A stretch of DNA of 64,000 bases from Mesorhizobium sp. (GTDB lineage Bacteria; Pseudomonadota; Alphaproteobacteria; Rhizobiales; Rhizobiaceae). The stretch is from contig SAQE01000016.1 in assembly GCA_004020545.1 (NCBI GenBank), positions 1-64,000 on the forward strand. The letters are read 5' to 3'. Below are positions 16,994-33,963 of this stretch, one piece after another (the stretch's first letter is position 1; every line of letters begins with the position of its first letter). Both the position numbers and the translations under genes were made by a program. The notes beneath the pieces were generated by a model, which was given only the letters and a program-made list of their open reading frames with translations, searched no databases and was not told the origin of the DNA.

Positions 16994-17459
16994 GGCAAAC
17001 GAGCGCCATTCGCAAGAACGCGCGCTTCCGAACAGCGCAGTTGAGCCGCTGGACGCACTTGGCGAAATTACGGCCACTTTCCGCGGGGCTCGATCGCGCA
17101 TCGTAGCTCAATTGGATGACCGTGCCCACCGTCAGTTCACATTGTCGGCCAGGACAGCGTAAGCCTCCTCTCAGTTCCAACACACGTTGAGGCGCGGGCG
17201 CCGTCTTGAGGCTGCGTTGCGACACTTCACGGTTGATCCGAAGCGAGGATAGGCGCTCTATCGAAAATGTACGAGACAATATTGGATGACAGTTCGTTTC
17301 GCCCTGCTGCTACCATGCGTCGTAGCCAGTGATGGCAAGGCTGTGATACCATTGCACAAGTTGCGCCGCCGTTGGCAATTGCCGTTCCCGCGCAGCCAAA
17401 CGACTGCGCGGTGCTGATCGGGTCGCGGGTCTCGTCCCGTGACCGAGTGGCCTCGGATC
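16994..17459. other. Intergenic region left of the complex I cluster, with a tRNA-like scrap
   Basis: About 450 bp between divergent genes. At 17103-17117 the plus strand reads GTAGCTCAATTGGAT, the D-arm signature of many tRNAs, but the anticodon and T arms do not follow, so it is at most a fragment. The rest must hold the promoters of nuoH and of the oxygenase gene; I cannot place them. Confidence 0.4.
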
Positions 17460-18446
17460 ATGGAACTCGTCGTCGCTCTTGGGCTGATCGTCTTCAAGGT
17501 CGCGTTGCTGATTGCGATCCTGCTGCTGCTGCCCTTGCCGCTGACCTGGCTGGAACGCAAGATCGCGGGGCACATCCAGCAGAGGATGGGGCCGATGCGT
17601 GTGGGCTGGCATGGGCTGCTGCAGCCGGTAGCGGACGGGGTCAAGCTCTTGACCAAAGAGGACCACATCCCGGCCGAGGCCGACCGCTTCCTGTTCAAAC
17701 TGGCGCCAATCCTGGCGCTCGCTCCGCCCTTCGTGGTGTTCGTCGCGATACCCTTCGGCGAATCCGTCTCGGTGCTCGGCACCAAGATCACCCTCTACGT
17801 CTCCAACCTGAACGTGGCGCTGCTTTTCGTCTTCGCGGTGATCGGGATCGAGGTCTATGGCGTCATCTTCGGCGGCTGGGCGGCGAACAGCAAATACGCC
17901 GTCCTGGGCAGCCTCAGGACCTGCGCGCAGATGATCAGCTACGAGATTCCGATGGGGTTCGCGGTCATCGGCGTGGTCATGCTGGCGCAATCCATGAGCC
18001 TGCTCGACATCGTGCGGGCGCAAGCCAATGTCTGGAACATCGTCTACCAACCGGTCGGGTTCTTCGTGTTTTTCGTCGCCGGCCTGGCCGAAGCGCAGCG
18101 CATTCCCTTCGACCTGGCGGAAGCGGAAGGCGACCTGGGGGCCGGGTTCCATACCGAATATAGCGGTATCCGCTTCGCATTCTTCATGGTCAGTGAATAC
18201 GCCATCATGCTTCTGACGTCGGTCCTTGCGGTGATCCTGTTCTTCGGCGGCTGGAACGGCGTGCTGGTCCCGTTGCCACCGCTCCTCTGGTTCGTGCTCA
18301 AGGTCGCGTTCTTCGTCTATGTGTTTATCTGGTTCCGCTTCACTTTCCCGCGCTATCGCTATGACCAACTGATGGCGATCGGGTGGAAAGTCTTGCTTCC
18401 TTTGTCGATGGCGAACATAATCATAACCGGTGTTGCTTTCCTTTAG
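17439..18446 (+). CDS. nuoH: NADH-quinone oxidoreductase subunit H (ND1)
   Basis: 335 residues from GTG 17439 (328 from ATG 17460). Eight or more membrane helices are present, with ND1 landmarks: LTWLERKIAGHIQQRMGP, GLLQPVADGVKLL, the quinone-channel loop AEAQRIPFDLAEAEGDLGAGFHTEYSG (given here in two parts: AEAQRIPFDL, then AEAEGDLGAGF), and IWFRFTFPRYRYDQLM. It forms the quinone chamber and joins the peripheral and membrane arms. Unusually it sits with nuoI on the opposite strand from the other twelve nuo genes. Confidence 0.93.
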   Translation: MTEWPRIMELVVALGLIVFKVALLIAILLLLPLPLTWLERKIAGHIQQRMGPMRVGWHGLLQPVADGVKLLTKEDHIPAEADRFLFKLAPILALAPPFVVFVAIPFGESVSVLGTKITLYVSNLNVALLFVFAVIGIEVYGVIFGGWAANSKYAVLGSLRTCAQMISYEIPMGFAVIGVVMLAQSMSLLDIVRAQANVWNIVYQPVGFFVFFVAGLAEAQRIPFDLAEAEGDLGAGFHTEYSGIRFAFFMVSEYAIMLLTSVLAVILFFGGWNGVLVPLPPLLWFVLKVAFFVYVFIWFRFTFPRYRYDQLMAIGWKVLLPLSMANIIITGVAFL

Positions 18447-18465
18447 GGGCTGCAACGAGGCGACT

Positions 18466-19032
18466 ATGTCGCGCGCACTGGACAGAACTGGAATATGGAT
18501 CGGCTGGGCGTTCTTCGCCGATCTGACGAACGCCTTGGCGCTGACCTTCGGCTACATGTTCTCCAGACCCGTGACCATGCAGTATCCGGACAAGGAAAAA
18601 TGGTTGCCCTATTCGCGTTACCGCGGGCATCACTTCCTGAAGCGCGACGACGAGGGCGAGATCAAATGCGTAGCCTGCGAACTCTGCGCGCGGATCTGTC
18701 CCTGCGACTGCATCGAGGTCATCCCCTACGAGGACGAGAAGGGCAACCGACACCCGGCAAAATTCGAGATCGACATGGCCCGGTGCCTGTTCTGCGGGCT
18801 GTGCGAGGACGCCTGTCCGGCGGACGCGATCGCGCTTGGCCAACAATACGAATTCTCGAGTTTTTCCTCAGCTGACCTGGTTATCGGACGTGACGATCTG
18901 CTCGGCAAGCCGGGCAAGGCGACGACCGGCGGCGGCGTGGTCGCTGCACGCCTGAACACTGAACAGGACGTGCTGGTCGAGACGAGCGAGCCGCAGGGGT
19001 ACAACTGGTGGCGGAATATCCGACGAACGTGA
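18466..19032 (+). CDS. nuoI: NADH-quinone oxidoreductase subunit I (two 4Fe-4S clusters)
   Basis: 188 residues from the ATG at 18466, which has AACGAGG upstream. Two complete ferredoxin motifs carry clusters N6a and N6b: Cys68/71/74/78 and Cys107/110/113/117. The subunit passes electrons towards N2 in NuoB. The C-terminus is about 30 residues longer than the minimal family core and ends NWWRNIRR. It lies 19 bp after nuoH, so the two are co-transcribed. Confidence 0.93.
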   Translation: MSRALDRTGIWIGWAFFADLTNALALTFGYMFSRPVTMQYPDKEKWLPYSRYRGHHFLKRDDEGEIKCVACELCARICPCDCIEVIPYEDEKGNRHPAKFEIDMARCLFCGLCEDACPADAIALGQQYEFSSFSSADLVIGRDDLLGKPGKATTGGGVVAARLNTEQDVLVETSEPQGYNWWRNIRRT

Positions 19033-19077: not shown

Positions 19078-19518
19078 ATGCTGGTCTGCCAAATCTTGAA
19101 GGCCAAGGCTCCCGAGGTCGTCTCGGTCACTCCAGGTCAGACAATGGAGGAAGTGCTACGGCTGTTTAGGGAGAACAACATCGGTTTCGTGGTCGTCAGC
19201 CGTTTCCCCGGCGATTGCATGGGCACGCTGTCGGAGCGGGACTGCTGCAATGCCGTGGCCGAACACGGAACCAGGGCGCCCTTGATGCGGGTCGCCGAGA
19301 TCATGAACCGCAGTGTGGCGACCTGTTCGACACAGGATTTTCTGCCTTCGGTGATGGCGATCATGACCGAACGGCGCACGCGCCATGTGCTGGTCGTGGA
19401 TGGCCGCACGATTGTCGGCGTGGTGAGCATCGGCGACGTGGTCAAGCATCGTCTCGAAGAATTGATGAGCAACGAGCAGGTGCTGCACGATTACATTGCC
19501 GGGACCGGTTATCACTGA
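19078..19518 (+). CDS. Tandem CBS-domain protein linked to nuoHI
   Basis: 146 residues from an ATG with AGGAGGCT upstream. Two CBS motifs are visible (about 10-65 and 75-135, the second ending RHVLVVDGRTIVGVVSIGDVVKHR). Such stand-alone CBS pairs bind adenine nucleotides and often sense energy state. It is 45 bp behind nuoI and ends 50 bp before the convergent nuoG end. A CBS gene inside a complex I locus suggests nucleotide-dependent control of the enzyme, but this is inference. It is distinct from the second CBS gene at 36717. Confidence 0.85.
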   Translation: MLVCQILKAKAPEVVSVTPGQTMEEVLRLFRENNIGFVVVSRFPGDCMGTLSERDCCNAVAEHGTRAPLMRVAEIMNRSVATCSTQDFLPSVMAIMTERRTRHVLVVDGRTIVGVVSIGDVVKHRLEELMSNEQVLHDYIAGTGYH

Positions 19519-19568: not shown

Positions 19569-22157
19569 TCAGCCCGGATTGCCAGGCCACGCCCCGACGC
19601 CGGCGAGAGTGGCGATCTCGAAAGCCGCGTGCGCCATTTCAACTTCCACCGGGCATGGGTATTCGCCCCGCCGCAGCAGGCTGTTGAGACGTAGCGATCT
19701 GTAGTTCTCGGGAACGAACACGAGGCCGTTGGGAAAACGCTTGTTGACCTTGAGCTTCGCCGTCAGTTCGCCCTGGGCCGATCGCACGACCACCTGATCG
19801 CCATCCGCAAGGCCAAGCTGCGCTGCATCCGGCGCGCTCATCTCGATATATGGGTCATCCGCGACGGTATTCAGGATCTCCGAGCGCTCGGAAAGATATC
19901 CGTTGTGGAACAGGCAGTTGCCGGTGACCAGCATGAGCCCGCCGGCGGCATTGGGGGCTGGCGGGGGGGCGAAGAACTCGCCTGCCGGCGGCGCAAGGGT
20001 CGCCTTAGTGAACACTCCGTCGGCGCCAAGCTCGCCCTGCGTCAACCCCTGGTATGCCGGAACCAGCCGGGCAATCTCGCCGAAGATTTCGCCATGGATC
20101 GACGGCCGCAACGCCTGGCCGCGAAGCGCCGCTACGAAGTCGAAAATCGCCAGATTGTCCCGCGCCTCAAGGGCGGGCTCGCGGAACTTGCAGACCTTCT
20201 GGGCGCGGCCTTCATTGTTGGTGAACGTGCCGGCTTCCTCGCCATAGCTTGCCGCGGGCAGCACGACATCCGCCAGGCCCGCCGTATCCGTAAGGAACGC
20301 GTCCTGCACGATCAGGAGATCGACGGCACGAAGCGCGCGCTGCACGAATCCCCGGTCGGGATAGGACATCATTGGGTCGCTTCCGGCTATATAGAGCGCA
20401 CCCATTCGCTTCCTGTCACAAAGCTCCAGCATGGCGTCGAAATCCAAGCCCGGTTCAGACGGCATCTCGGCGCCCCAGGCCCGTTCGAGCGTTGCGCGTG
20501 CCGCATCGTCGGCGAGCGCGCGCAACCCCGGCAGCGCCGTCGGCAGAACGCCCATGTCCCAGGCGCCCAGTTGGTTGGCACGGTCGAAGAGGAACTGCAT
20601 CGCCAGGCCCTTACCGAGTGCGCGCAGGACCTGCAAAAGGTTGTTGAGCTGGTACAACGTCGCGCGCGCCCGGGGTGATCTCAAGAGGTCGGCGCTGACA
20701 AGCACACTGGCGCTCCGGCCTTCCAGCAGCGCTGCGGCCAGGCGGTCCGGATCGTCACTGTCGGCGGCCGCTGCTGGCCGGCCGGTTTTCACGCCGATGT
20801 CCGCAAAAACGTCGCCCGGCAATGCCTGACCAGCCGCCCCCAGTCCGCTCACCACTGCGGCAAGGCCCTGAGCCTCACCGCCCGGCGGCACTCGAACGAC
20901 CACGTGGGCATCGGCGTCCAGACGCGAAGGTCGTGCCGAGAGCATGAGCAACCGGGTCTTCCGCCGCCGCGCACCGTCGCGCAGCAAATATTCCGTGACG
21001 GGATTTTCGTCCGTCACATTGCCGCCGACGACAAGCACACAGTCGTTGCCTATCACCTCCTCCAGCGGCGCGCGCGTGTAGAAGCCGGCCACCAACGGGC
21101 CGAGCGCATCAAAGGGCGTGGACCAGCGCGAGGAGCAGTCGATATTGTTGGTCCGGAATGCCGTCCGCATCAGCTTCTGGAATTGATAAAGCACCTCGTT
21201 GGGCAGGCGCGGCGAGGCCAGCCCGCCCGCAGCCTTGCTGGCGACGGCCGACAGCCGCCGGCGGAGGTAGTCCCCCGCTTCGTCCCAGGAAACCGGGACC
21301 TGGACCCCGTCACGACGGATCATCGGTCGCTTGATCCGGTCCCGACTGCCGACGAAGTCGAGACCGAAGCGCCCGCGCACGCAGAGCGTTTCGCGGTTGA
21401 CTCCGTGCTCCACCTTCGAGCGGACCCGCATGAACTCGCCCTTGCGTGTACCGACGGTCAGTTGGCAGCCGGTGCCGCAATGCGGGCAGACCGTGTCGGT
21501 CTCGACCAGATCCCAGGGCCGCGCCTTGTAGCGATAGGGGAAGCTCATCAGCGCGCCGACCGGGCATACTTCGACGCAATTGCCGCACTGGTCGCAACTC
21601 GCGAGACTACCCTCGAAGCCGGTGACAGCGGTGTCCATGCCTTTTTCAACGGTGCCCAAGGCAACCGCGCCGACGACTTCTTCGCACATCCGGACGCAGC
21701 GCTGGCACTGGATGCAGCGGTTGACGTTCATGATGATGACCGGGCTGAGACGGATGTCCTCGGAGTGGAACACTCGCTTGGCATCGTGAAAGCGGCTTGT
21801 GCGAGGGCCATACGCCATCACCATGTCTTGAAGCTCGCACTCGCCGCCCTTGTCGCAGATCGGGCAGTCGAGAGGGTGGTTGGCGAGCAGCATGTCGAGC
21901 ATGGAAGAGCGCGTTTCGTCGATCAGCTTTGTGTTCGTGCGCACCACCATGCCGTCGGTGACCGCGGTGGCGCAGGAAGGCTGCAGTCGCCGCTGCCCCT
22001 CAATCTCCACCAGGCACATGCGGCAGGAGGCCAGCGCCGGCAGCCGCTTCAGATAGCAGAAGGTCGGGATGTCGATGCCCAAACACTCGGCGGCCTGGAG
22101 CACCGTGGAGCCCGCCTCCACTTCCAGCGTTCGTTCATCGATTGTGACGCGAACCAT
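19569..22157 (-). CDS. nuoG: NADH-quinone oxidoreductase subunit G, with N7-type cluster
   Basis: About 862 residues from ATG 22157. Cluster ligands visible: 2Fe-2S N1b (Cys34, 45, 48, 62); N5 (His94, Cys98, 101, 107); N4 region (Cys148, 151, 154, 158 and Cys188, 191, 194, 198); and the extra N7 motif Cys224-x2-Cys227-x3-Cys231-x27-Cys259. The long C-terminal half is a molybdopterin-oxidoreductase-like domain. Mitochondrial-type alphaproteobacterial NuoG (about 690 residues) lacks N7, so this belongs to the E. coli/Thermus-like kind. It is the last gene of the minus-strand operon. A longer frame to 22205 lies inside nuoF and is not needed. Confidence 0.93.
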   Translation of the reverse strand: MVRVTIDERTLEVEAGSTVLQAAECLGIDIPTFCYLKRLPALASCRMCLVEIEGQRRLQPSCATAVTDGMVVRTNTKLIDETRSSMLDMLLANHPLDCPICDKGGECELQDMVMAYGPRTSRFHDAKRVFHSEDIRLSPVIIMNVNRCIQCQRCVRMCEEVVGAVALGTVEKGMDTAVTGFEGSLASCDQCGNCVEVCPVGALMSFPYRYKARPWDLVETDTVCPHCGTGCQLTVGTRKGEFMRVRSKVEHGVNRETLCVRGRFGLDFVGSRDRIKRPMIRRDGVQVPVSWDEAGDYLRRRLSAVASKAAGGLASPRLPNEVLYQFQKLMRTAFRTNNIDCSSRWSTPFDALGPLVAGFYTRAPLEEVIGNDCVLVVGGNVTDENPVTEYLLRDGARRRKTRLLMLSARPSRLDADAHVVVRVPPGGEAQGLAAVVSGLGAAGQALPGDVFADIGVKTGRPAAAADSDDPDRLAAALLEGRSASVLVSADLLRSPRARATLYQLNNLLQVLRALGKGLAMQFLFDRANQLGAWDMGVLPTALPGLRALADDAARATLERAWGAEMPSEPGLDFDAMLELCDRKRMGALYIAGSDPMMSYPDRGFVQRALRAVDLLIVQDAFLTDTAGLADVVLPAASYGEEAGTFTNNEGRAQKVCKFREPALEARDNLAIFDFVAALRGQALRPSIHGEIFGEIARLVPAYQGLTQGELGADGVFTKATLAPPAGEFFAPPPAPNAAGGLMLVTGNCLFHNGYLSERSEILNTVADDPYIEMSAPDAAQLGLADGDQVVVRSAQGELTAKLKVNKRFPNGLVFVPENYRSLRLNSLLRRGEYPCPVEVEMAHAAFEIATLAGVGAWPGNPG

Positions 22158-22189: not shown

Positions 22190-23455
22190 TCAGTGAAACG
22201 GGCACCTCCGCTCCTCGATGTGCGTGACGAATTCATCTTCGAAATGAGCCAGTGCCGCCCGCAGGCCCATCGCCGCGCCGTCGCCAAGGGCGCAGAACGT
22301 GTTGCCGAAAATGCCTTTGCAGAGCGCCTCCAGCTGTTCCATATCGCCAGGCGCGCCCCGGCCCGCCTCGACCCGGCGCAGGACTTTCACGACCCAGTTC
22401 AGCCCTTCGCGGCAGGGGGTGCACTTGCCGCAGGACTCGTGGTGGAAGAACTCGATGATCCGGGTGGCGACTTTGACGATGCAGGTCGAGTCGTCGATCA
22501 CGATCACCCCGGCCGAGCCGAGCATGGAGCCGGCAGCAGCCAGCGAGTCGAAGTCCATCCCGACGTCCAGCCCGCGCTCCGGGATCAGCGGCGCCGAAAC
22601 CCCGCCCGGGATCACCGCCTTGAGCTTGCGCCCCGGCAGCGGCCCGCCGGCGCAGTCCTCGACCAGTTCGCGCAGCGGTATCCCCATCGGCAGCTCGTAA
22701 AGGCCCGGCTTCCGCACCTGTCCGCTGAGGCAATAGAGCTTCGGGCCGGGGCTCTTGTCCGGGCCGATGCCGCGGAACCAGTCGGCCCCTCGCACCACGA
22801 TATGCGGGACACAGGCCAGCGTCTCGACATTGTTGATCACGGTCGGGCTGGCGTAGAGCCCCTCGACCGCCGGAAAAGGCGGCTTCAGGCGCGGCTGCGC
22901 CCGCTTGCCTTGGAGCGAGTCGAGCATCGCGGTCTCCTCGCCGCAGATATAGGCGCCGGCGCCGCAATGGATGTGCACGACGAAGCTGAAATCCGAGCCC
23001 ATAATCCGTGTTCCCAGATAACCCTTCGCATGAGCCTCGGCGATCGCCTGCTCCAGCCGTGAGATCGCCAGCGTGTATTCCCCGCGGATGTAGACATAGG
23101 CGGTTTCCGCTCCTATCGCGTAGGCGCAGATCGCCATGCCCTCGATCAGTTGGTGCGGGTCACGCTCCATGATGATCCGGTCCTTGAAGGTGCCCGGCTC
23201 GCCTTCATCAGCGTTGCAGCACAGGTATTTCGGCTTGCCGGCACGCTTGGGCACGAAGCTCCATTTCATGCCCGTAGGGAATCCGGCTCCGCCGCGACCG
23301 CGCAGGTTGGATTTCTTGACGAGGTCGATGATCTCGTCGGGCGTGTGCTCCCGCAGCGCCTTGGCCAGCGCCCGGTAGCCGCCGCCGGCCTCATAAGTCG
23401 CGAGCAGATGGCCATCCGGCACGTCCACGTTGCTGAGAAGGACCGGTTCGAACAT
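22190..23455 (-). CDS. nuoF: NADH-quinone oxidoreductase subunit F (FMN, N3 cluster)
   Basis: 421 residues. The FMN/NADH site motif GRGGAGFPTGMKW is near residue 53, ADEGEPGTFKDR follows, and the N3 cluster motif ESCGKCTPCREG with a distal Cys in GNTFCALGDGA is near the C-terminus. This subunit oxidises NADH and starts the electron chain. It is 4 bp downstream of nuoE and followed by nuoG in one operon. Confidence 0.95.
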   Translation of the reverse strand: MFEPVLLSNVDVPDGHLLATYEAGGGYRALAKALREHTPDEIIDLVKKSNLRGRGGAGFPTGMKWSFVPKRAGKPKYLCCNADEGEPGTFKDRIIMERDPHQLIEGMAICAYAIGAETAYVYIRGEYTLAISRLEQAIAEAHAKGYLGTRIMGSDFSFVVHIHCGAGAYICGEETAMLDSLQGKRAQPRLKPPFPAVEGLYASPTVINNVETLACVPHIVVRGADWFRGIGPDKSPGPKLYCLSGQVRKPGLYELPMGIPLRELVEDCAGGPLPGRKLKAVIPGGVSAPLIPERGLDVGMDFDSLAAAGSMLGSAGVIVIDDSTCIVKVATRIIEFFHHESCGKCTPCREGLNWVVKVLRRVEAGRGAPGDMEQLEALCKGIFGNTFCALGDGAAMGLRAALAHFEDEFVTHIEERRCPFH

Positions 23456-23459: not shown

Positions 23460-23981
23460 CTATTCTCCCGGCGGTCCTGCGGCGGCGAGCTCAGCGCCAG
23501 TCGCTAGCCGCACCGTCGCGCGTAACCTGCCCAGCAGCGCGTCGATCCGCGCGATGTCGAGGTCGCCGTGATAGTCGTCGCCGACCTGCATAACCGGAGC
23601 CATCTCGCAAGCGCCGAGGCATTCGACGGTCGAAAGCGTGAACAGCCCGTCCGAGGTCGTGCCGCCTTTCTTGATGCCGAGCACCTCCTCCAGGTGCCTC
23701 AGCAGGTCTTCGGATCGGCGCAGCATGCAGGAGACATTGTCGCAGAGCTGCAGATGGAACATGCCCACCGGCTCGGTATGGAAGAGGGTGTAGAAGGTCG
23801 CCAGTTCGTAGACCCAGATCCGCTCGACGCCGAGGATGTCGGCGACCTCTTCCAGGACCGAGCCGGGCAGATGGCCATGTTCCCTCTGGGCGATCAGAAG
23901 TGCGGGCATGATCGCCGAGCGCTGGTCGGGATATCGCGCCGCCGCCTCTTCGATCTTTTCGCGCATGGTCATCGCGTCCAA
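23460..23981 (-). CDS. nuoE: NADH-quinone oxidoreductase subunit E (N1a cluster)
   Basis: 173 residues of thioredoxin-like fold. The 2Fe-2S ligands Cys80, Cys85, Cys121 and Cys125 (LCDNVSCML and ECLGACEMAP) are present. It partners NuoF in the NADH-dehydrogenase module. Internal ATGs at codons 4 and 6 are also possible starts. It lies 7 bp after nuoD. Confidence 0.93.
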   Translation of the reverse strand: MDAMTMREKIEEAAARYPDQRSAIMPALLIAQREHGHLPGSVLEEVADILGVERIWVYELATFYTLFHTEPVGMFHLQLCDNVSCMLRRSEDLLRHLEEVLGIKKGGTTSDGLFTLSTVECLGACEMAPVMQVGDDYHGDLDIARIDALLGRLRATVRLATGAELAAAGPPGE

Positions 23982-23988: not shown

Positions 23989-25203
23989 CTACTTGTCCAC
24001 CTCCGCCATCACGGGGTCGAGGCTGCCGAGCACGGCGATCATGTCCGCCAGATAGCGCGCATTGGTGACCCCGAAGAGCGCCTGAAGGTTGACGAACGAG
24101 GGTGACCGCACCTTCATGCGGAACGGTTTCGGCGACCCGTCGCTGATGATGTAGAAGCCGAGCTCGCCCTTTGGCGCCTCGATCACCGAATAGACCTCTC
24201 CCTTCGGCACCTTGAAGCCATAGGCCGACAGGTCGAAATGCTGGATCAGCGCCTCCATCGAACAGTGCACCCGGTCCTTGTCCACCGGGAAGGCGATCGT
24301 CGGCATGTCGATCTGGAACGGCCCGTCGGGCATCTGGTCGAGGCATTGCTCGATGATCCGGACGCTCTCGCGCATTTCCTCGACCCGGCATCGCCAGCGT
24401 GCGTAACAATCGCCCTCCTGGCTGGTGATGACATCGAAATCGAGCCGGTCGTAAATCTCGTAAGGCTCGTCGCGGCGGATATCCCAGTCGACGCCCGAGG
24501 CGCGCAGGTTCGGGCCGCTCAGGCCGAGATCGATGCCGTCTTCGGCCGAGATGACACCGATCCCTTGCGTGCGCTTCAGGAACACGCGGTTGCTGTCGAG
24601 CAATCGTTCATAGTCGCGGATCCGGTTCGGGAAGATGTCGCAGAACTCTCGGATCTTAGAGAAGAACCCGTCGGGCAGGTCCTCGCGCACGCCGCCGACC
24701 CGGCAAAAGGAGGTGTGCATCCGCGCCCCGCTGATCATCTCCAGCAGGTCCATGATCATTTCGCGCTCGCGCATGGCGTAGAGGAGCGCGGTCATCGCGC
24801 CCAGGTCCATCGGCAGCGCGCCGGTGATCAGGAGATGGCCGGAAATCCGTGCCAGTTCTGCCATCAGCACGCGGATGTATTGTGCGCGGACCGGTGCCTG
24901 GATGCCGAGCAGCTTCTCCACCGCAAGCGCGAATGCCAGGTTGTTCGAGGGCGGGCAGAGGTAGTCGAGCCGGTCGGTCAGCGGAAAGATCTGGGTGTAG
25001 GTGAAGCTCTCGGCCAGCTTTTCGGTGCCGCGGTGGAGGTAGCCGATGTGCGGGTCGACACGCTCGACATATTCGCCGTCCAACTCGAGGACGAGGCGCA
25101 GCACTCCATGCGTGCTGGGATGCTGCGGCCCGAGGTTGAGAAGCACTTCCCTGGTGTGGGGCGCATCCGATTCAGAACAGCTCAATTCCGTGACTTCGGT
25201 CAT
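23989..25203 (-). CDS. nuoD: NADH-quinone oxidoreductase subunit D (49 kDa)
   Basis: 404 residues from the ATG at 25203, one base after the nuoC stop. Motifs: NLGPQHPSTHGVLRLVLEL near the N-terminus, PHIGYLHRGTEKL and the C-terminal YIISDGSPKPFRMKVRSPSF. It forms the quinone-reduction site with NuoB. The open frame extends back to 25488 through nuoC in another frame, and that extension is rejected. NuoC and NuoD are separate here, not fused as in E. coli. Confidence 0.95.
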   Translation of the reverse strand: MTEVTELSCSESDAPHTREVLLNLGPQHPSTHGVLRLVLELDGEYVERVDPHIGYLHRGTEKLAESFTYTQIFPLTDRLDYLCPPSNNLAFALAVEKLLGIQAPVRAQYIRVLMAELARISGHLLITGALPMDLGAMTALLYAMREREMIMDLLEMISGARMHTSFCRVGGVREDLPDGFFSKIREFCDIFPNRIRDYERLLDSNRVFLKRTQGIGVISAEDGIDLGLSGPNLRASGVDWDIRRDEPYEIYDRLDFDVITSQEGDCYARWRCRVEEMRESVRIIEQCLDQMPDGPFQIDMPTIAFPVDKDRVHCSMEALIQHFDLSAYGFKVPKGEVYSVIEAPKGELGFYIISDGSPKPFRMKVRSPSFVNLQALFGVTNARYLADMIAVLGSLDPVMAEVDK

Positions 25204-25204: not shown

Positions 25205-25768
25205 TCAAGTCCGCGGTGTGGAGCGGCCTCCCAGCGGAATGTCCTCGGTGGCAAGGTCGGGTTGCGTCGGCGGCGAGCCTTCGGCGCCGAACGGGTTGAG
25301 CTTGTCCTTGTAGCCCCGCAGCGGAAAGTCCTTGCGCTGCGGGAAGCCCTGGAACCCTTCCCACATATAAATCCGGCGCAGGTCGGGGTGGCCTTCGAAC
25401 CTGATCCCGTACATGTCCCAGGCCTCGCGCTCATGCCAGTTGGCGGTGCGCCAGACCCCCGTAACCGACGGGACCCGGGGCGGATCACCGAGGCGGCACT
25501 TGATCCGCACGCGCCATTTGTTCGGCAGCGAACAGAGGTGGTACACCGCCTCGTAGCGCGGCATCTCGGGGTAGTGATCGACCCCGCAGATGTCGGACAG
25601 GAAATCGAACCGAAGCACCGGGTGTTCCTTCATGAACCGGCAAAGCTCGACGATCATGTCAGGCGGAGCGGCGAAAGCGTGAACCCCGTGCGAAAAGCCG
25701 AGTTCCTCGATTGCCTCCCCGAAACGTTCCACGACCAGGGTGCGGATGAGGGATGTCTCCACGCTCAT
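25205..25768 (-). CDS. nuoC: NADH-quinone oxidoreductase subunit C (30 kDa)
   Basis: 187 residues. The 30-kDa-subunit signature is clear: [20 protein letters not shown] then [16 protein letters not shown], and PLRGY near the end. It is a peripheral-arm structural subunit contacting NuoD. Its start overlaps the nuoB stop by 4 bp (ATGA). Confidence 0.94.
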
Positions 25769-26268
25769 GGCACCGCGACCCGGTCCAGGGGCCCCGCAGC
25801 CAGCGCCCTGGATTTCTTGATCTTCTCCTGAAGCAGTAGGAAGCCGTGCATCAGCGCCTCGGGCCGCGGCGGGCAGCCGGGCACATGCACGTCCACCGGC
25901 ACGAAGGTCTCCGCGCCCTGCACCACCGCATAGGTGTTGTAGACCCCGCCCGAGATGGCGCAGGTGCCCATGGCGATGACCCAGCGCGGTTCCGGCATCT
26001 GGTCATAGAGCCGGCGCACCACGGGCGCGAATTTCCGCGTTATGGTGCCGGCGATGATCATCACATCGGACTGGCGCGGCGAAGGCCGGAACACCACGCC
26101 GAAGCGGTCGAGATCGTACCGTGCACAGCCCGCAGAGATCATCTCGATGGCGCAGCAGGCAATGCCGAAGGTTTCGGGCCACAGCGCCGACCTTCGGCCC
26201 CAGCTGATCAGGCTGTCGGCGGTGGTGAACAGCACGCTGTCGCGGATCGCGTTGTTTACACCTCCCAT
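25765..26268 (-). CDS. nuoB: NADH-quinone oxidoreductase subunit B (N2 cluster)
   Basis: 167 residues from the ATG at 26268. The N2 cluster ligands are Cys38-Cys39 (the tandem pair in [10 protein letters not shown]), Cys103 (MGTCAISGG) and Cys132 ([10 protein letters not shown]). N2 hands electrons to quinone. The start lies 13 bp inside the end of nuoA, so the two are translationally coupled. The upstream part of the open frame to 26490 is nuoA in another frame. Confidence 0.95.
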
Positions 26269-26612
26269 TCCAGCGCCCCCTTCAGCCAGGCGTAGGCGAA
26301 GCCCACGAGAAGCAGCAATATGAAGACGAACATCTCGACATAACCAACCAGCCCGATCTCTTTCAGGACAACGGCCCACGGAAAGAGGAACATCGTCTCG
26401 ACATCGAAGACCACAAACAGGATCGCGATGATGAAGAACTGCACCCTGAAGCGGCCCCCGGCGGCTTCGCCCGCCGGGTCCATGCCGCATTCATAGGGCA
26501 TGTTCTTTGCGGGATAAGGATTGGATGGGCGCAGGAGCGAGGAGACAAAAAGCGTAGCCATCGCCACCAGAACAATTCCGGCGACCATGAAAAGTACCGG
26601 CAGGAACTCCAT
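26256..26612 (-). CDS. nuoA: NADH-quinone oxidoreductase subunit A (ND3)
   Basis: 118 residues from ATG 26612 (a GTG at 26621 would add three). Three membrane helices and the ND3 motifs YECGMDP (with the loop Cys) and [15 protein letters not shown] are present. It starts the A-B-C-D-E-F-G run. A gap of 165 bp separates it from the end of nuoN, long enough for an internal promoter. Confidence 0.94.
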
Positions 26613-26777
26613 TCCGGTCACGTCGCACAGCCCCGGTCATCCGCCGAGGGCTTTACTCAAGCCGCCACCGACGCCTTTGGGATCGGTGATGCGGGCGCCC
26701 CTTTGGAAACGACTAGGGCATTCCTTTCTAGTACCGTCAGAGTATTCCGTCGGTCGGATCATTGCAAATGCAATCGA

Positions 26778-28217
26778 TCAGCCGCCAATCGCGGCATGTT
26801 GAGCAAGCCTCAGAAACCACGCCGGAAACAGGCCGATGCCGATGGTGCCGGCGGCGGTGAGGGCGAGTGTGGCGCCGACCGAGGGCGTCAGCGCGGGGAC
26901 GAACGCGCCTTCCGGCTCGCGCATGTAGATCACCATTACGATGCGGATGTAGAAGTAGGCGGCAACGGCGCTCAACAGCACCGCGATCACCGCCAGCATG
27001 ACGAAACCCCGCTCGACGAGCGCGACCAGCACGTAGAATTTGGCGAAGAACCCGGCTGTCGGCGGAATGCCGGCCAACGAGAACAGATAGAGCAGCATCA
27101 GAAGCGCCAGCCCGCTATGTGACTTGGCGAAACCAGCGTAGTGCTCGATGACCTCGCCCGAGAAATCGCCGTTCCGCATCATGATGACGATGCCGAAGAT
27201 GCCGAGGTTCATGAACGCATAGATCAGCAAATAGAGCATCACGCTGGCGACCCCGTCCGCACCGCCGGCCGCCACGCCGAACATGGCGAACCCGGCATGG
27301 GCGATGCTGGAATAGGCCAGGAGGCGCTTGAAATTGTCCTGCACCAGCGCCACGAAACTGCCGAGTGCCATTGTCACTGCCGCAATGACGGCGACGATGA
27401 CCCAGACATTCGAGGCAGCGACCAGCGGGTTGAGGAACACCCGGAGGATCACAGCGAACCCCGCTGCCTTAGGCCCCACCGACATGAAGGCGGTGATCGT
27501 CGTCGGCGCGCCTTCATAGACGTCCGGCACCCACATATGGAAGGGCACAGCGCCGACCTTGAATACAAGCCCTGCGACGATAAAAACCACAGCCAGGAGC
27601 AATCCGGGGTCGAGCGGGTTTCCGGTCACCGCCGTAGCCATCTTGTCCAACTGCGTCGTGCCGGTGAGCCCGTAGACCAGCGAAACGCCGTAAAGGAAAA
27701 TCCCGGTCGAAACCCCGCCAAGGATCACGTATTTCAGCGCCGCTTCGTTCGACCGCTGCTGCTGCCGCAGGAAGCCGGTCAGCACATAGGTGCAGAGCAC
27801 CATCAGTTCGAGGCCTACATAGATCGACAGGAGGTCGGTCGCTGAGGCCATGATCATCATTCCAGAAAGCGCCAGCAGCAGCAGTACATAGTATTCACTG
27901 CGCCCGATCCCCTCGATCTCGGCATATCTTTGCGACAGAAGGAATGTCAGAACTGTAGCTAGGTAAAACACGACCTTGAAGAAGACCGCGAAGCGGTCGG
28001 CGATGAACATGCCCGAGTAAGCCGATCGCACCTCGCCAGCCAGCATGAGTGTCCCCGAGGCGGCCATCAGCACGACCGCGACTGAAGCCCAGACAAGGAA
28101 ATGTTCCTGCCCCTTGGGCACAAGCTGCCCCAGGATCAGCAGGATGCAGGCCCCGGTAATCACGACAATCTCGGGCAGGCTTGCTAGAATCGACTGGAAA
28201 AGCACGGCGGCGGTCAT
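26778..28217 (-). CDS. nuoN: NADH-quinone oxidoreductase subunit N (ND2)
   Basis: 479 residues from the ATG at 28217, overlapping the nuoM stop by 4 bp. It has the antiporter-like core: FKVGAVPFHMWVPDVYEGAP with the TM7 Lys, the discontinuous-helix region VGPKAAGFAVI, and PPTAGFFAKFYVLVALVERG with the TM12 Lys. It is one of the proton-translocating membrane subunits. The frame extending to 28310 lies within nuoM and is rejected. Confidence 0.94.
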   Translation of the reverse strand: MTAAVLFQSILASLPEIVVITGACILLILGQLVPKGQEHFLVWASVAVVLMAASGTLMLAGEVRSAYSGMFIADRFAVFFKVVFYLATVLTFLLSQRYAEIEGIGRSEYYVLLLLALSGMMIMASATDLLSIYVGLELMVLCTYVLTGFLRQQQRSNEAALKYVILGGVSTGIFLYGVSLVYGLTGTTQLDKMATAVTGNPLDPGLLLAVVFIVAGLVFKVGAVPFHMWVPDVYEGAPTTITAFMSVGPKAAGFAVILRVFLNPLVAASNVWVIVAVIAAVTMALGSFVALVQDNFKRLLAYSSIAHAGFAMFGVAAGGADGVASVMLYLLIYAFMNLGIFGIVIMMRNGDFSGEVIEHYAGFAKSHSGLALLMLLYLFSLAGIPPTAGFFAKFYVLVALVERGFVMLAVIAVLLSAVAAYFYIRIVMVIYMREPEGAFVPALTPSVGATLALTAAGTIGIGLFPAWFLRLAQHAAIGG

Positions 28218-29689
28218 TGGGCGTCCCCCTTGCCGTGCACCTGCGCCAGAAGATGCTTCACCGAGGCGTCGATGATTTCGAGAAAGGGCTTCGGATAGAG
28301 TCCGATCCAAACAACGAAGACGGCTAGCGGCAGGATCGCCGCCATCTCGCGGGCGTTCACGTCGCGGATCTTGAACCGCACGCCGATGCTGGCCGGACCA
28401 AGCGCGACCTTCCTATACATGCCAAGCAGATAGGCTGCCCCCAGCAAGGCTCCCAGAACGGCGGCGGCGCCGACAGCGAGATTGGCTGCGAACGCGCCTG
28501 ACAGCACCAGCAACTCGCCCACGAACGAACTCGTTCCCGGCAGCGCCATCGACGACAGGGCGAACAGTGCAAGAAACGCCGTATAGACCGGCGCCGCCTT
28601 CATCAGGCCGCCATAATCCGCGATGCTGCGGGTATGGGTCCGCTCGTAGATGAGGCCCACAGACAGGAACAACGCGCCCGTCGTCACGCCATGATTGAAC
28701 ATCTGCAGGATGCCGCCCTCCAGCCCACGGAGGTTCAGCGTGAAAATCCCCAGCGTCACCAAGCCCATGTGGCTGATGCTGGAATAGGCCACCAGCTTCT
28801 TCAGGTCGTCCTGCGCCAGGGCGAGCAACCCGCCATAGACGATGGCAACCGCCGAAAGAACCAGCATCAGCGTCGAATAATGCACCGTCGCCTCGGGCAG
28901 CATTGGCAGCGAGAACCGCAGGAACCCGTAGGCGCCCATCTTCAGAAGCACGGCGGCGAGGATGATGCTGCCGGCCGTTGGTGCCTGCACATGGGCATCC
29001 GGGAGCCAGGTATGGACCGGGACCATCGGCACCTTGACCGCGAAGGCGATCAGGAAGGCGAAGAACAGCCACGACTGGACCTGGAACGGCAAATGCTGCG
29101 CCATCAAGGTGCGGATGTCGAAGGTCTCGCCACCGTGGAAATAGAGCACGATGACACCGATCAGGAACATGAGGCTGCCTGCCAGCGTGTAGAGGAAGAA
29201 CTTGAACGCTGCATAGACGCGGCCGTCGCCACCCCAGACGCCGATGATGACGTACATCGGAATCAGCATCGCCTCCCAGAAGACGTAGAACAGGAACAGG
29301 TCCAGCGCGCAGAACACGCCCAGCATCAGCGCTTGCATGGCCAGCAGGCTGACCATGAACTCCTTTACCTTGCGGTCAATCGCGACCCACGAGGCAAGCA
29401 CGCAGATCCAGCCCAGCAACGCGGTCAGGAACACGAAGGGTGCACTGATCCCGTCGATACCAAGTGCGTAAGTGATCCCTAGCGCGGGCACCCACTGATG
29501 CGTCTCGGTGAACTGCATCTCGTGGGTAGAGGTGTCAAAGCCGCCCAGCATGGCGATGCAAAGTGCGAAGTCGAGGGCAGTGACGCCCAGTGCCGTCCAC
29601 CGCACAACATCGTCGTTGCGGACAAACATCAATGCTGTCGCCCCGACGGCTGGAGTGAAGACGATGAGGCTAAGCAGAGGCATCGCCAT
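28214..29689 (-). CDS. nuoM: NADH-quinone oxidoreductase subunit M (ND4)
   Basis: 491 residues, about 14 helices. NuoM landmarks: FLFYVFWEAMLIPMYVIIGVWGG with the TM5 Glu, VKVPMVPVHTWLPDAHVQAP with the TM7 Lys, VLLKMGAYGFLRFSLP, and a TM12 acidic residue in TSSFVGELLVLSG, which is Glu in NuoM in place of the Lys of NuoL/N. All key charged residues are present, so it should pump. It starts 9 bp after the NuoL-like gene. Confidence 0.94.
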   Translation of the reverse strand: MAMPLLSLIVFTPAVGATALMFVRNDDVVRWTALGVTALDFALCIAMLGGFDTSTHEMQFTETHQWVPALGITYALGIDGISAPFVFLTALLGWICVLASWVAIDRKVKEFMVSLLAMQALMLGVFCALDLFLFYVFWEAMLIPMYVIIGVWGGDGRVYAAFKFFLYTLAGSLMFLIGVIVLYFHGGETFDIRTLMAQHLPFQVQSWLFFAFLIAFAVKVPMVPVHTWLPDAHVQAPTAGSIILAAVLLKMGAYGFLRFSLPMLPEATVHYSTLMLVLSAVAIVYGGLLALAQDDLKKLVAYSSISHMGLVTLGIFTLNLRGLEGGILQMFNHGVTTGALFLSVGLIYERTHTRSIADYGGLMKAAPVYTAFLALFALSSMALPGTSSFVGELLVLSGAFAANLAVGAAAVLGALLGAAYLLGMYRKVALGPASIGVRFKIRDVNAREMAAILPLAVFVVWIGLYPKPFLEIIDASVKHLLAQVHGKGDAQ

Positions 29690-29698
29690 CGCGCGCCC

Positions 29699-31459
29699 CT
29701 ACCGCCACGCCACAGCGAATATGGCGATAGCCGCGATCACGCCGGCGACCATCGCCAGCGCATAGTGGGTCACGACGCCGCTCTGGAGCCGCCGCAGCGC
29801 CAAGCCGCCGCGCAGGATCGAGCGGGCGACGCCGTTCACGAAGGCGTCCACGCCGTGGAGGTCGATCCGCAGTCCTGCCCGTGCCATCCCATGCAGAAAG
29901 GGCAGCGCCGCGGTCTCGGACACGTCACTCACCGCTTTCTCGTAGCGCGCCAGCGGTTTTTCGGCGAGCCACATGAACTGCCGCGCGCCCATGCGGTAGA
30001 ACCAGTCGGTATCGATGCTGATCGTATTCTCGGGGTCGAGCGCCCGGAGGAAGATGACGAAGCCCAAGGCCGTGAACATCAGCACGCCGAGGCTCTCGGT
30101 GACATGGACGCCGGTGTAGGGTTCGAAGTCGACCGGATGTGGCAGAAGCGCGTAGAGCGTGTGGGGAAACACCCCGATCGCAATGCAGAGCACTGCCGCC
30201 ATGCCCATCGCAACCAGCATGTTGCGCGGCGGTTCTCGCGCTTCCAGCCCTTGGTCCGTACCGAAGAACATGTAGTACGGGAGCTTGAGCCCGGTGTGCA
30301 GGAACGTGCCTGACGACGCCATCGTCAGCGCCAGCACCACCAGCGCGCGATGATCCTGCGCGGCGGCGGCCACCACCATCGACTTGGTGACGAAACCCGA
30401 GAAGAACGGGAATGCCGAGATCGCAAAGGCGCCAATCATATAGAGCGCAAGGGTTACCGGCATGGTTCTATAGAGCCCTCCGAGCTCCGTGAGCTTGCGC
30501 CGTCCCGTGACGTGGATCACCGCCCCTGCGCCCATGAAGAGGAGCGCCTTGTAGAGGATATGCGCGAAGGCATGGCTGACGGCGCCGTTCACCGCCATCT
30601 CGGTCCCGATGCCGATGCCCGCCACCATGTAGCCCACCTGGCTGACGATGTGATAGGCAAGGAGCCGTCGGCAATCGTTCTCCAGCACTGCGTAGATAAC
30701 GCCGTAAAGCGCCATCACAGTGCCGAGCCAGACAAGAAGATCGGTCCCCGGAAACGCCCGCGCCAGCACATAGACGGCGGTCTTCGTGGTGAAGGCGCTC
30801 ATGAATACGGCCCCGGTGACGGTCGCTTCCGGGTAGGCGTCGGTCAGCCAGGCGTTGAGTGGCGGCACCGCGGCGTTGAGCAGGAACCCGGCAAGGATCA
30901 GGCACGTCGCAAAGCCCAGCCCGCCCTCGATCGGGGCGATGAGCAGCGAACCCGTGCCGAACCCATGGAGAACGATGCCGCCGAGCAGGGCAACGCTGCC
31001 GGTGATGTGGACCATGAGGTAGCGGAACCCTGCGCGGAACGCCTGCCCGCTGCGCTGGGCAAAGACCAGGTAGGCAGAGGCAAACGTCATACCCTCCCAG
31101 AAAAGGAAGAGGGTCAGGTAGTCGCCGGCGAACACGACTCCGAGCGCGCTGCCGACGTAGACGAACGCCGCGATATGCTGTCCCGCGTGCGTCAGGTGCA
31201 ACGCATAGACCATGCCGATCAACGCCATGATGCTGAAAACGGTGGCGAAGAGGATGCTTAGCTTGTCGACCTCGGCGACAATGATTTCCTGCCCGATGAA
31301 CCGCGCCACGCCGTAACTGCCAGGATGCATCGTCAGCACGGCTAGGATCGCCAGCGTCGGGATCAGCAGCACATAGGCCTTGCGGACAGACCCTTTGAGG
31401 AATGGAATTGGAAGAGCGCCGAGAATGAACAGTAGTCCTGGATGGACGAAGTCAGTCAT
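29699..31459 (-). CDS. nuoL: NuoL/MrpD-like antiporter subunit with long C-terminal lateral helix
   Basis: 586 residues. The core is antiporter-like: FLFWEGMTFASAYLVF with the TM5 Glu, and FFSGFVTKSMVVAAA with a TM12 Lys. Two features differ from textbook NuoL. The TM7 Lys position reads FLLNAAVPPLNAWL (Asn for Lys), and TM8 carries an MrpD-like Lys (TTKTAVYVLAR). The C-terminus, from DTDWFYRMGARQF to LRRLQSGVVTHYALAM, has the NuoL pattern of a lateral amphipathic helix plus a final membrane helix. That stretch is about 80 residues, which seems longer than usual. It is the best NuoL candidate here, and overlaps the small gene upstream by 8 bp. Confidence 0.85.
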   Translation of the reverse strand: MTDFVHPGLLFILGALPIPFLKGSVRKAYVLLIPTLAILAVLTMHPGSYGVARFIGQEIIVAEVDKLSILFATVFSIMALIGMVYALHLTHAGQHIAAFVYVGSALGVVFAGDYLTLFLFWEGMTFASAYLVFAQRSGQAFRAGFRYLMVHITGSVALLGGIVLHGFGTGSLLIAPIEGGLGFATCLILAGFLLNAAVPPLNAWLTDAYPEATVTGAVFMSAFTTKTAVYVLARAFPGTDLLVWLGTVMALYGVIYAVLENDCRRLLAYHIVSQVGYMVAGIGIGTEMAVNGAVSHAFAHILYKALLFMGAGAVIHVTGRRKLTELGGLYRTMPVTLALYMIGAFAISAFPFFSGFVTKSMVVAAAAQDHRALVVLALTMASSGTFLHTGLKLPYYMFFGTDQGLEAREPPRNMLVAMGMAAVLCIAIGVFPHTLYALLPHPVDFEPYTGVHVTESLGVLMFTALGFVIFLRALDPENTISIDTDWFYRMGARQFMWLAEKPLARYEKAVSDVSETAALPFLHGMARAGLRIDLHGVDAFVNGVARSILRGGLALRRLQSGVVTHYALAMVAGVIAAIAIFAVAWR

Positions 31460-31706
31460 AATAGTCCTCGCGCCGCATCAGCCCGCACTGATGGCCAAGA
31501 AACTTGGACACGAAGATCAGAAGCACGCAGGAGCCGAAGCCATAGAAAGCAGACCAGCCTGGCAGCCGCTCCCACAGGTATTCGGCGCGCGCGCGGAAGA
31601 CCAGAAAGTCGGCGATAACGATCAGGACGAGCACCAGATAGAACAGCCGGCGACGCGTTTTCGCATGTCTCTCATCGCCAAAGAAATCGACAACGAGCTT
31701 GATCAT
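31452..31706 (-). CDS. Small membrane protein between the two antiporter subunits
   Basis: 84 residues with two hydrophobic helices (about 22-39 and 51-67), a basic N-terminal part (ERHAKTRRRLFY) and an acidic C-terminus ending RREDYYD. It overlaps the upstream antiporter gene by 4 bp and the downstream one by 8 bp, so it must be co-translated with them. No family is recognised. It is not a standard Nuo or Mrp subunit. It may bridge the extra antiporter to the complex. Confidence 0.75.
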   Translation of the reverse strand: MIKLVVDFFGDERHAKTRRRLFYLVLVLIVIADFLVFRARAEYLWERLPGWSAFYGFGSCVLLIFVSKFLGHQCGLMRREDYYD

Positions 31707-33157
31707 CTGACGACTCTTTCCGCCAGGGCGACGAAATAGTCCGGGAAGATGCCCATCGCCACCGACAGGATGGCGGTCGCGACCAGCGGTATCGTCAGCA
31801 TCGGAATTTCGCGAACGGTGGCCGGGCTCTCCTGCGCCTCAGTCCCGAAGAAAGCGGCATAGCTGACCGGGAGGAAATAGGCGGCGTTCAGGACCGAACT
31901 TATCAAGAGCACGATAAGGAACGGGGTCTCCCCGGCCTCCACTGAGCCGCGCGCCAGATACCACTTGCTGATGAAGCCCGCAGCCGGCGGCACCCCGATC
32001 ATGCTGAGCGAGCCGACGAAGAACGCCCCCATCGTCCAGGGCAACCTGCGGCCGATGCCGGCCATGTCACTGATGTTCCGCTTGCCGGACGCGCAATAGA
32101 TCGACCCGGCGCAGAAAAACAGCGTGATCTTCGAGAATGCATGCGCCGCGATGTGGATGATCCCGCCAACCATCGCGATGGGCGACAGCAGAACCGCGCC
32201 CAGCACGATGTAGGAGAGCTGGCTGACCGTCGAATAGGCGAGCCGTGCCTTCAGGTCGTCCCGCGTCAGGGCGTAGATGGACGCCATCAGGATCGTGAAC
32301 GAGACTACATAGGCAGTGGCGATCCCGAGCCCCAGCCCACCCACCAGCCCTACGCCGAAGACATGGAACACGACGCGCAGCACGCAGAAAACACCCATCT
32401 TGACGACGGCCACCGCATGCAAGAGGGCGCTTACCGGTGTCGGCGCCACCATTGCGGCAGGCAGCCAGGCATGCATCGGCATCACCGCGGCCTTGGCGAA
32501 GCCGAAGAGGTAGCAGAAATAGACGACGGTCAGCAGCGGCGCCGAGGCGTTCACTCCCGCCAGCAGCCCCCCCGGCACAAAGTCGAGCGACCCCGCAATA
32601 TTGTAGGTCAACGCCAGCGCGGCCAGAAGCACGCTTTTCGATGCGCCCATCAAATAGACGAGGTATTTGCGGCTGCCTGTCCATCCCTCCTCGTCCTCGT
32701 GGTGGTAGACAAGCGGATAGGTGACGAGGCTCAGCACCTCGTAGAAGATCACCAACGTGAACAGGTTGGCGGCGAAGGCGCCCCCGGCGGCTGCCGCGAG
32801 GCTGGCAGCGAAGCAGGCGAAGAACCGGGTCTGCGCATGCTCATTCAAGTGCCGCATGTAGCCTATGGAATAGATCGAAGCCACGATCCACAGCAGCGAA
32901 GATACGGTGGCAAACACCATGCCGAGCGCATCGACACGGAAAGCGAAGTCGATCCCCGGCAGAATCTCGAACAGGCGCAAATCGACTGTCCCGCCTGCCA
33001 GCACCGTGGGCGCCATTGAGGCGACGATTGCGAACATAGCGATCGCGGCCAACGGCGAGATGACATCGCGGAGCTTCGCGCGCTTGTTCAGAAGGAGAAC
33101 TGCAAGGGCCGCCAGAACTGGGACGGCAACGGCAAGCAGAGGCCGGATCGATATCAC
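31703..33157 (-). CDS. Extra MrpD/NuoM-like antiporter subunit
   Basis: 484 residues, about 14 helices, no lateral helix. All proton-path residues are visible: FTLVIFYEVLSLVTYPLVY (TM5 Glu), FAKAAVMPMHAWLPAAMVAP (TM7 Lys), LLHAVAVVKMGVFCVLR (TM8 His and Lys) and PPAAGFISKWYLARG (TM12 Lys). It resembles MrpD of Na+/H+ antiporters and NuoM more than NuoL. With NuoL-like, NuoM and NuoN this makes four antiporter-type subunits in one complex I operon, against three in the canonical enzyme. It follows nuoK by 3 bp. Confidence 0.85.
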   Translation of the reverse strand: MISIRPLLAVAVPVLAALAVLLLNKRAKLRDVISPLAAIAMFAIVASMAPTVLAGGTVDLRLFEILPGIDFAFRVDALGMVFATVSSLLWIVASIYSIGYMRHLNEHAQTRFFACFAASLAAAAGGAFAANLFTLVIFYEVLSLVTYPLVYHHEDEEGWTGSRKYLVYLMGASKSVLLAALALTYNIAGSLDFVPGGLLAGVNASAPLLTVVYFCYLFGFAKAAVMPMHAWLPAAMVAPTPVSALLHAVAVVKMGVFCVLRVVFHVFGVGLVGGLGLGIATAYVVSFTILMASIYALTRDDLKARLAYSTVSQLSYIVLGAVLLSPIAMVGGIIHIAAHAFSKITLFFCAGSIYCASGKRNISDMAGIGRRLPWTMGAFFVGSLSMIGVPPAAGFISKWYLARGSVEAGETPFLIVLLISSVLNAAYFLPVSYAAFFGTEAQESPATVREIPMLTIPLVATAILSVAMGIFPDYFVALAERVVR

Positions 33158-33160
33158 CGG

Positions 33161-33466
33161 CTATCCTTTCATCATGGTCACTTCGTCGACCTTGAGGGTG
33201 GACTTGTTCCTCGCGAGGGCGACCAGGATTCCGAGGGCGACGGCAACCTCCGCCGCAGTGATCGCGATGACGAAGATTGCGAAAATCTGCCCGCGGAAGT
33301 CGTCGTAGTAATGCCCGAAAGCGATGAAATTGATATTGACCGAGTTGAGCAGCAGTTCCAGCGACATCAGCACGACCAGGATATTGCGTCTGAGCAGCAC
33401 GCCCGCCGCACCGATCACGAACAGGACCACTCCGAGCACGACATACCACCACAGCGGCACCATCAC
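33161..33466 (-). CDS. nuoK: NADH-quinone oxidoreductase subunit K (ND4L)
   Basis: 101 residues, three helices. The motifs [20 protein letters not shown] and [16 protein letters not shown] carry the two conserved buried Glu residues of ND4L. Its start overlaps the nuoJ stop by 4 bp. Confidence 0.94.
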
Positions 33467-33963
33467 TGCGGCTCCTTCCGCGCCAAAACGATGGCGCCTA
33501 CCAGGGCCGCCAGCAGGATGACGGAGGCGACTTCAAACGGCAGGAGATAGTCGGCGAAAAGTGCCGCGCTGAGCTGCCTGACCTCACCGCCGGTGCGCAT
33601 TGCGACGGGTTGCGCGATCGCAAAGCGATCGCTCCTGAGCACCAGCACAAGCATCTCGACCCCGAGCACGACGAGCAGCACCAGGGCCGGCAGATTGCTG
33701 CCGGGCAAGAACCGCTGCAGCACCGCTTCGCGCACGTCGATCATCATGATCACGAACAGGAACAGGACCATTATCGCGCCGACATAGACGAAAATCTGGA
33801 TGACCGCGAGCAGCGGCGCCTCGAGCAAGACGAAGATCGCCGATACTTGCAGGAAACACGCCATCAGCGCCAATGCGCTGTGAACAGGATTGCGCGCCAG
33901 GACCAAGGTCAGGGCCGTGACCACGGACGCCGCGGCAAACAGAAGAAAGAACCCCTGATCCAT
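33463..33963 (-). CDS. nuoJ: NADH-quinone oxidoreductase subunit J (ND6)
   Basis: 166 residues from the ATG at 33963, with CGGAGGAGCGG upstream (an in-frame start at 34029 is the alternative). Five helices; the ND6 motif [21 protein letters not shown] contains the pi-bulge helix. It is the first gene of the minus-strand operon nuoJ-K-antiporter-small-antiporter-M-N-A-B-C-D-E-F-G. Confidence 0.93.

Follow-up and report, generated by a model that had tools for sequence, protein, structure and literature searches.

The window analysed here comprises 64,000 nucleotides of contig SAQE01000016.1 from Mesorhizobium sp. (assembly GCA_004020545.1), a soil bacterium with kin among the root-nodule bacteria, and carries a gene cluster for respiratory complex I (NADH:quinone oxidoreductase) in which four antiporter-like proteins are encoded. 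A complete complex I set is present. On the minus strand, nuoJ, nuoK, D1, sp, D2, nuoM, nuoN and nuoA to nuoG run from 33963 down to 19569, D1 and D2 being two MrpD-like proteins and sp the small protein between them. On the plus strand, nuoH, nuoI and a CBS-domain gene occupy 17439-19518 and converge on nuoG. The section 26778..33963 covers part of this cluster, nuoA to nuoG continuing on the same strand beyond it and nuoH and nuoI lying on the opposite one. The features, with the basis of each name, are the following.

33463..33963, minus strand: nuoJ (PF00499), 166 amino acids from an ATG, the same length as nuoJ of S. meliloti
reaching 34029, minus strand: alternative longer nuoJ open reading frame (ORF) with a GTG start
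33161..33466, minus strand: nuoK (PF00420; NF004320 over cut-off)
31703..33157, minus strand: D1, MrpD-like antiporter subunit of 484 amino acids (NF006236, antiporter subunit D, over cut-off; tree)
31452..31706, minus strand: sp, 84-amino-acid protein between D1 and D2, with relatives at other loci and matching no Pfam/NCBIfam family
29699..31459, minus strand: D2, 586 amino acids (NF009310, antiporter subunit D, over cut-off)
28214..29689, minus strand: nuoM (TIGR01972 over cut-off; tree)
26778..28217, minus strand: nuoN (TIGR01770 over cut-off), start placed from the overlap with nuoM, as in S. meliloti
26256..26621, minus strand: nuoA (PF00507)
25765..26268, minus strand: nuoB (PF01058), start as in S. 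meliloti
25205..25768, minus strand: nuoC, an ORF named from gene order and related loci, not family profiles
23989..25203, minus strand: nuoD, an ORF named from related loci, not family profiles
23460..23981, minus strand: nuoE, an ORF named likewise from related loci, not family profiles
22190..23455, minus strand: nuoF, an ORF named in the same way, from related loci, not family profiles
19569..22157, minus strand: nuoG (Fer2_4, NADH-G_4Fe-4S_3 and Molybdopterin domains)
17439..18446, plus strand: nuoH (NF004741 over cut-off), convergent toward nuoG, the same layout as in S. meliloti and Rhizobium
18466..19032, plus strand: nuoI (TIGR01971 over cut-off), the same layout as in S. meliloti and Rhizobium
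19078..19518, plus strand: CBS-domain protein (PF00571), found after nuoI likewise in S. meliloti and Rhizobium sp. Pop5

A Pfam scan assigned four proteins of the cluster, D1, D2, nuoM and nuoN, to PF00361. An earlier note on this DNA, made from the letters and the predicted ORFs, had claimed that four such proteins are encoded without gaps in one operon with nuoJ and nuoK. The ORFs were found where it had placed them and belong to the expected families, and the near-gapless arrangement was borne out, neighbours from nuoJ through nuoN overlapping by 4-8 bases or being spaced by 3-9 bases. No NuoL was found in the cluster, D1 and D2 scoring below the cut-offs of both listed NuoL models of NCBIfam. 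The set from A to N is therefore complete provided that D1 and D2 substitute for NuoL.

To place the cluster among known enzymes, the best 80 of 160 relatives from a protein search were each fetched as a genome locus. The order J-K-D1-sp-D2-M-N was present in 78 of the 80 loci and the whole order from J to G within the fetched stretch in 73 of them, indicating that the arrangement is not due to chance. The two loci lacking the full J to N order (L028 and L082) open at the edge of a contig, part-way into the set, and in L058 the contig stops after N. In L056, L071, L082 and L085, N and A are separated by 2 to 6 kb of intervening DNA, so that the fetched stretch ends before the whole order is complete; the intervening DNA measures about 6 kb in L056 and in L082. 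In L063 (Ensifer sp. LCM 4579), nuoJ-K-D1-sp-D2-M-N is followed by 7 kb devoid of nuoA to nuoG, which might lie farther away. The membrane-arm genes can thus be split from the remaining nuo genes, as in L063, L056 and L082. Both S. meliloti RCAM1750 and Rhizobium sp. Pop5 have the same layout on a plasmid, convergent nuoH, nuoI and CBS-domain genes included, and the 80 loci include Mesorhizobium, Phyllobacterium, Microvirga, Ensifer and Defluviimonas. Within the genus, the D2 family was detected at an expectation value (E) of 1e-100 or below in 19 of 146 genomes, the source genome counted. This genome (6.99 Mb) has nine PF00361 places, namely the four described here, three belonging to a canonical nuo cluster (contig C160), so that a canonical complex I is present besides the copy studied, and a pair of hydrogenase-4 type on contig C144.

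Judged by gene content and order, the cluster is the rhizobial "green" complex I, an already described type for which Mesorhizobium is a new host record. Green complex I is described as having two MrpD-like subunits in place of NuoL (PMC9040806, PMC7415380), and it is reported to be carried beside the standard enzyme by about 70 Alphaproteobacteria and to show raised expression in symbiosis (PMC7415380). The cluster shares with it the two MrpD-like subunits, the position as a second complex I beside a canonical one and the rearranged gene order. No difference from the described type was found in the window cluster; the host is Mesorhizobium, whereas PMC7415380 places the green form in Rhizobium and Sinorhizobium and, among its compared strains, reports it absent from the other genera. 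The earlier note had mentioned that complex I cassettes with an extra pumping subunit were known and could not say whether a small protein between two MrpD-like subunits belonged to one of these types. Such a class does exist (PMC9040806, PMC7415380), and the small protein fits it, recurring in green complex I loci.

Two other enlarged enzymes resemble the green form. Complex_I_3 of Manganitrophaceae also has two MrpD-like subunits, reported to be closest to the rhizobial ones, but differs in having five pump subunits, with a second NuoM among them, and an MrpD2 lateral helix longer by 26 residues (PMC9040806). The 2M complex I likewise has four antiporter-like subunits and an extended lateral helix; there, however, NuoM is duplicated to give the extra subunit, and NuoL is retained in a lengthened form (PMC6606698, PMC9040806). 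The cluster has one NuoM and no NuoL, and its identity with 2M complex I was rejected. It is also distinct from canonical complex I, having four antiporter-like subunits and no NuoL, and from an Mrp antiporter, the partners of D1 and D2 from nuoJ to nuoG being nuo genes and not MrpA, B, C, E, F and G.

The affiliation of D1 and D2 was examined further in genomes outside the green loci. In an order-wide search, 92 of 397 genomes were found to hold the D2 family, from which 40 further regions were fetched (2 green and 38 non-green), and a phylum search gave 15 of 299 genomes over the cut-off, of which 12 regions were taken, making 50 non-green, hereafter Mrp-type, D2. Four duplicate loci were dropped from the D2 set, L023 and L069 were relabelled green and L100 was omitted for lack of context. 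Except for L127 and L147 (the latter cut short), the Mrp-type D2 sit with MrpC and a further subunit D' (48 of 50), the operon taking the form MnhE-MrpF-MrpG-MrpB-MrpC-D'-D1-sp-D2, in some cases interrupted by contig ends. These operons (L123-L134, L142-L179) have the D1-D2 order of the window cluster, with an sp relative in between at 43 of the 50 loci and none detected at E ≤0.001 in the other seven; unlike the window cluster, they adjoin no nuo genes, and their D2 has a short helix segment and an unrelated tail. At L127 (6121-9686), D1-sp-D2 stands alone beside flagellar and two-component genes, with no other Mrp or nuo matches in the fetched stretch, and the genome concerned (G081) holds three D1-sp-D2 trios (L127, L129 and L130).

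The phylogeny that the earlier note had proposed as a check was built from 81 antiporter-like proteins, with a long branch flagged for E. coli NuoN. Green D1 and green D2 joined Mrp-type D1 and Mrp-type D2, respectively, both groupings having support of 100/100, in clades separate from NuoL, MrpA and MrpD, and M and N grouped with NuoM and NuoN. Green D2 is nested among the Mrp-type D2, next to L154 (100/92 in this tree and 100/99 in the D2 tree). On the evidence of these trees, the nearest kin of D1 and D2 are found in Mrp-type operons that encode three antiporter subunits.

Two membrane helices are predicted for the small protein, whose C-terminus bears the motif LMRREDYYD. In 20 aligned rows, the first helix has Asp (19) or Glu (1) close to its end and the C-terminus carries R-x-(D/E)-x-YY; that 78 of 80 rows have a length of 84 depends on the choice of the Met giving the length closest to 84. 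At E ≤0.001 there was no match to a Pfam or NCBIfam family, and at E ≤1 six families matched, each with one of seven members (best 0.003). No solved relative was found (best E 0.75). From gene order, we guess that sp is probably a structural piece at the contact of D1 and D2.

The two ends of D2 proved to be of different kinship. Its body up to the DW motif (residues 485-486) scored a median of 656 bits on the Mrp-type D2 profile versus 111 on the NuoL profile. In all 84 green sequences the last 58 residues scored 36-48 bits on the NuoL-tail profile versus 1.6-7.5 on the Mrp-type tail profile. Tails of Mrp-type D2 reached at most 4.5 bits on the NuoL-tail profile (46 of 50 scored at all), and in a control with 20 window proteins only D2 exceeded 4 bits on it. 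The body and tail profiles of NuoL were built from 18 and 31 NuoL, respectively; sequences that went into the NuoL or Mrp profiles necessarily score high on them, and no green sequence entered either. D2 is thus, by these profile scores, a chimera of an Mrp-type D2 body and a NuoL-like C-terminus. Since L154, the nearest Mrp-type relative of green D2, has a short tail, the simplest reading is that D2 acquired its NuoL-like end within the green lineage.

The lateral helix of D2 is also unusual in length. The segment from a conserved aromatic anchor (LYD in NuoL, FYR in D2, VFE and similar in MrpA) to transmembrane helix 16 (TM16) spans 25-29 residues in MrpA (8 of 8), 49-54 in NuoL (31 of 31), 47-59 in Mrp-type D2 (48 of 50, two having no TM16 window) and 76-79 in green D2 (83 of 84, the remaining one having 50). 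MrpA pairs with one other antiporter-like subunit (PMC7419157). NuoL has two such partners, Mrp-type D2 two by gene content and green D2 three, suggesting that the segment lengthens by about 25 residues per antiporter-like subunit, from two for MrpA to three for NuoL and Mrp-type D2 and four for green D2. The step is close to the 26 residues by which MrpD2 of Manganitrophaceae is reported to exceed the rhizobial form, an extension of similar length being reported for NuoL of 2M complex I (PMC9040806). The tail after the DW motif measures 100 residues in all 84 green D2, about 25 more than in NuoL and Mrp-type D2. The step of about 25 residues would place D2 at the far end of the row, separated from M by D1, which supports the order N-M-D1-D2.

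Taken together, these data make it quite probable that the cluster encodes a green-type complex I, that is, an NADH:quinone oxidoreductase with normal N and Q modules and four antiporter-like membrane-arm subunits, most likely ordered N-M-D1-D2 outward from the quinone site; the presence of four modules as such is very likely. In the mechanism that we propose, D1-sp-D2 would have been taken from an Mrp-type operon into a nuo operon, displacing nuoL, of which the 3' end would have been retained on D2. The NuoL-like end of D2 would dock the lateral helix on the N/K side, with about 25 additional residues to reach across one further subunit. D1 would be expected to translocate a proton as M and N do, and D2 would form the outermost module, in which the ion pair is altered, His standing on TM6 and Asn on TM7. 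Five protons per NADH would then be possible, as would four, and the changed proton to electron ratio that the earlier note expected from a fourth pumping module is a possibility on this view. The full version of this proposal, with a captured Mrp module, the nuoL 3' end as a docking strap, a helix ruler of about 25 residues per subunit (two in Mrp, three for NuoL and Mrp-type D2, four here and five in Manganitrophaceae) and a terminal pump working without the TM7 Lys, for which the TM6 His would substitute, is tentative, and we regard it as marginally more apt to fail than to hold.

Several observations weigh against the green-type enzyme as outlined above. The distance from the end of TM15 to TM16 (90-95 residues in green D2, 75-90 in NuoL and 66-79 in Mrp-type D2) gives no clean step, because the piece before the anchor is longer in NuoL (median 32, against 14 in green D2 and 17 in Mrp-type D2; 19-24 in MrpA). 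The MrpA anchor was placed by a rule of our own, which required an LQ motif within 27 residues. The rhizobial form is said in PMC9040806 to have no insertion, a statement made relative to Manganitrophaceae and to be read alongside the NuoL comparison made here. An AlphaFold model of D2 from 32 green sequences had a mean predicted local distance difference test score (pLDDT) of 53.7, with residues 424-586 below 50, and was not used. Finally, the TM7 Lys is replaced by Asn (Asn195) in all 84 green D2.

This last replacement bears on an alternative in which four modules are present and D2 is not an independent pump, functioning rather as an altered terminal piece or an exit for protons, with four protons moved per NADH. 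The Glu-Lys pair is described as common to every antiporter-like subunit (PMC9802314). D1 retains the TM5 Glu and the TM7, TM8 and TM12 Lys, and the TM7 Lys is present in 67 of 67 non-D2 antiporter-like rows of an 83-row alignment. Purified Paracoccus complex I with K232Q in Nqo13, a substitution of this Lys, did not catalyse, whereas Nqo13 H239 could be changed to Gln without much effect (PMC9802314); the counterpart of H239 is also lost in D2 (Asn202). Lacking the TM7 Lys, D2 may not be a pump of the usual kind. On the other hand, none of the 134 D2 departs from Glu on TM5 or from Lys on TM8 and TM12, and Asn at TM7 is shared by 26 of 50 Mrp-type D2, the other 24 having Lys. Asn195 is always paired with His151 on TM6 (110 of 110), and Lys195 with Gln151 (23 of 24) or Lys151 (1 of 24). 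A single change accounts for Asn at TM7 in a D2 tree of 58 rows, for which 8 were drawn from the 84 green sequences. This single change, the sharing with Mrp-type D2 and the constant His151 make the Asn form look like a working variant rather than a product of decay. Because it represents one event in the tree and 11 other columns change along with it, the link between His151 and Asn195 is a suggestion. The view of D2 as an end piece is on balance somewhat improbable.

It is unlikely that the enzyme is mainly used in reverse, with the extra coupled ions driving electrons from quinol to NAD+ or a low-potential carrier. Respiration in symbiosis runs forward, which counts against such a use, and nuoE, nuoF and nuoG are retained in the cluster. 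Reverse operation has been proposed for 2M complex I and Manganitrophaceae Complex_I_3 (PMC6606698, PMC9040806); against it stands the report that the green form is raised in symbiosis (PMC7415380). Last, the idea that D1-sp-D2 is a separate cation/proton antiporter sharing only the operon, although it agrees with the antiporter-D families of D1 and D2 and with their occurrence in Mrp-type operons without nuo genes, is very improbable because the cluster would be left without NuoL and Mrp partners are missing, matches to Mrp E, F, G, B, C or D' being present in the fetched stretch at only 2 of 80 green loci (one D'-like match about 7 kb away on the other strand in L023; a few Mrp-like matches more than 6 kb away in L069), and because the NuoL-like tail and longer helix segment of D2 occur only in the nuo setting.

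The surroundings of the cluster were also inspected. A second small CBS-domain protein is encoded at 36717-37184, so that a CBS gene lies near each end of the cluster. Adjoining nuoH on the minus strand (15333-17101) are ORFs for an MpaB/Lcp-type oxygenase and a SAM hydroxide adenosyltransferase, which overlap as listed, and upstream of nuoJ a 314-amino-acid ORF (34242-35186) has no Pfam match at E ≤1e-5. FixK-like sites (TTGATN4ATCAA, up to 2 mismatches) number 35 in the window versus 17.5 expected from shuffles; the nearest before nuoJ (34360-34373) is about 400 bases off, within another ORF.

Beyond the known type, the Mrp kinship of D1 and D2, the chimeric nature of D2, the helix step and the Asn at TM7 may be new, as they were not found in the literature examined, outside which Chadwick 2018 and Degli Esposti 2016 lie. 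By title and abstract, no description of a D2 chimera, a helix rule, a fourth antiporter-like subunit or Mrp operons with an extra MrpD was met, and these two works may cover parts; a match for the fourth antiporter-like subunit, PMC4893023, concerns the E-channel.

The proton count of complex I and the role of each antiporter-like subunit are still argued. A natural enzyme with four modules beside a canonical copy in the same genome allows a direct test of stoichiometry, and a D2 without the TM7 Lys is a natural variant at a residue thought to be essential. The chimeric D2 and its step-like helix length provide a concrete rule for how such machines may lengthen, and the number of protons moved is directly testable.

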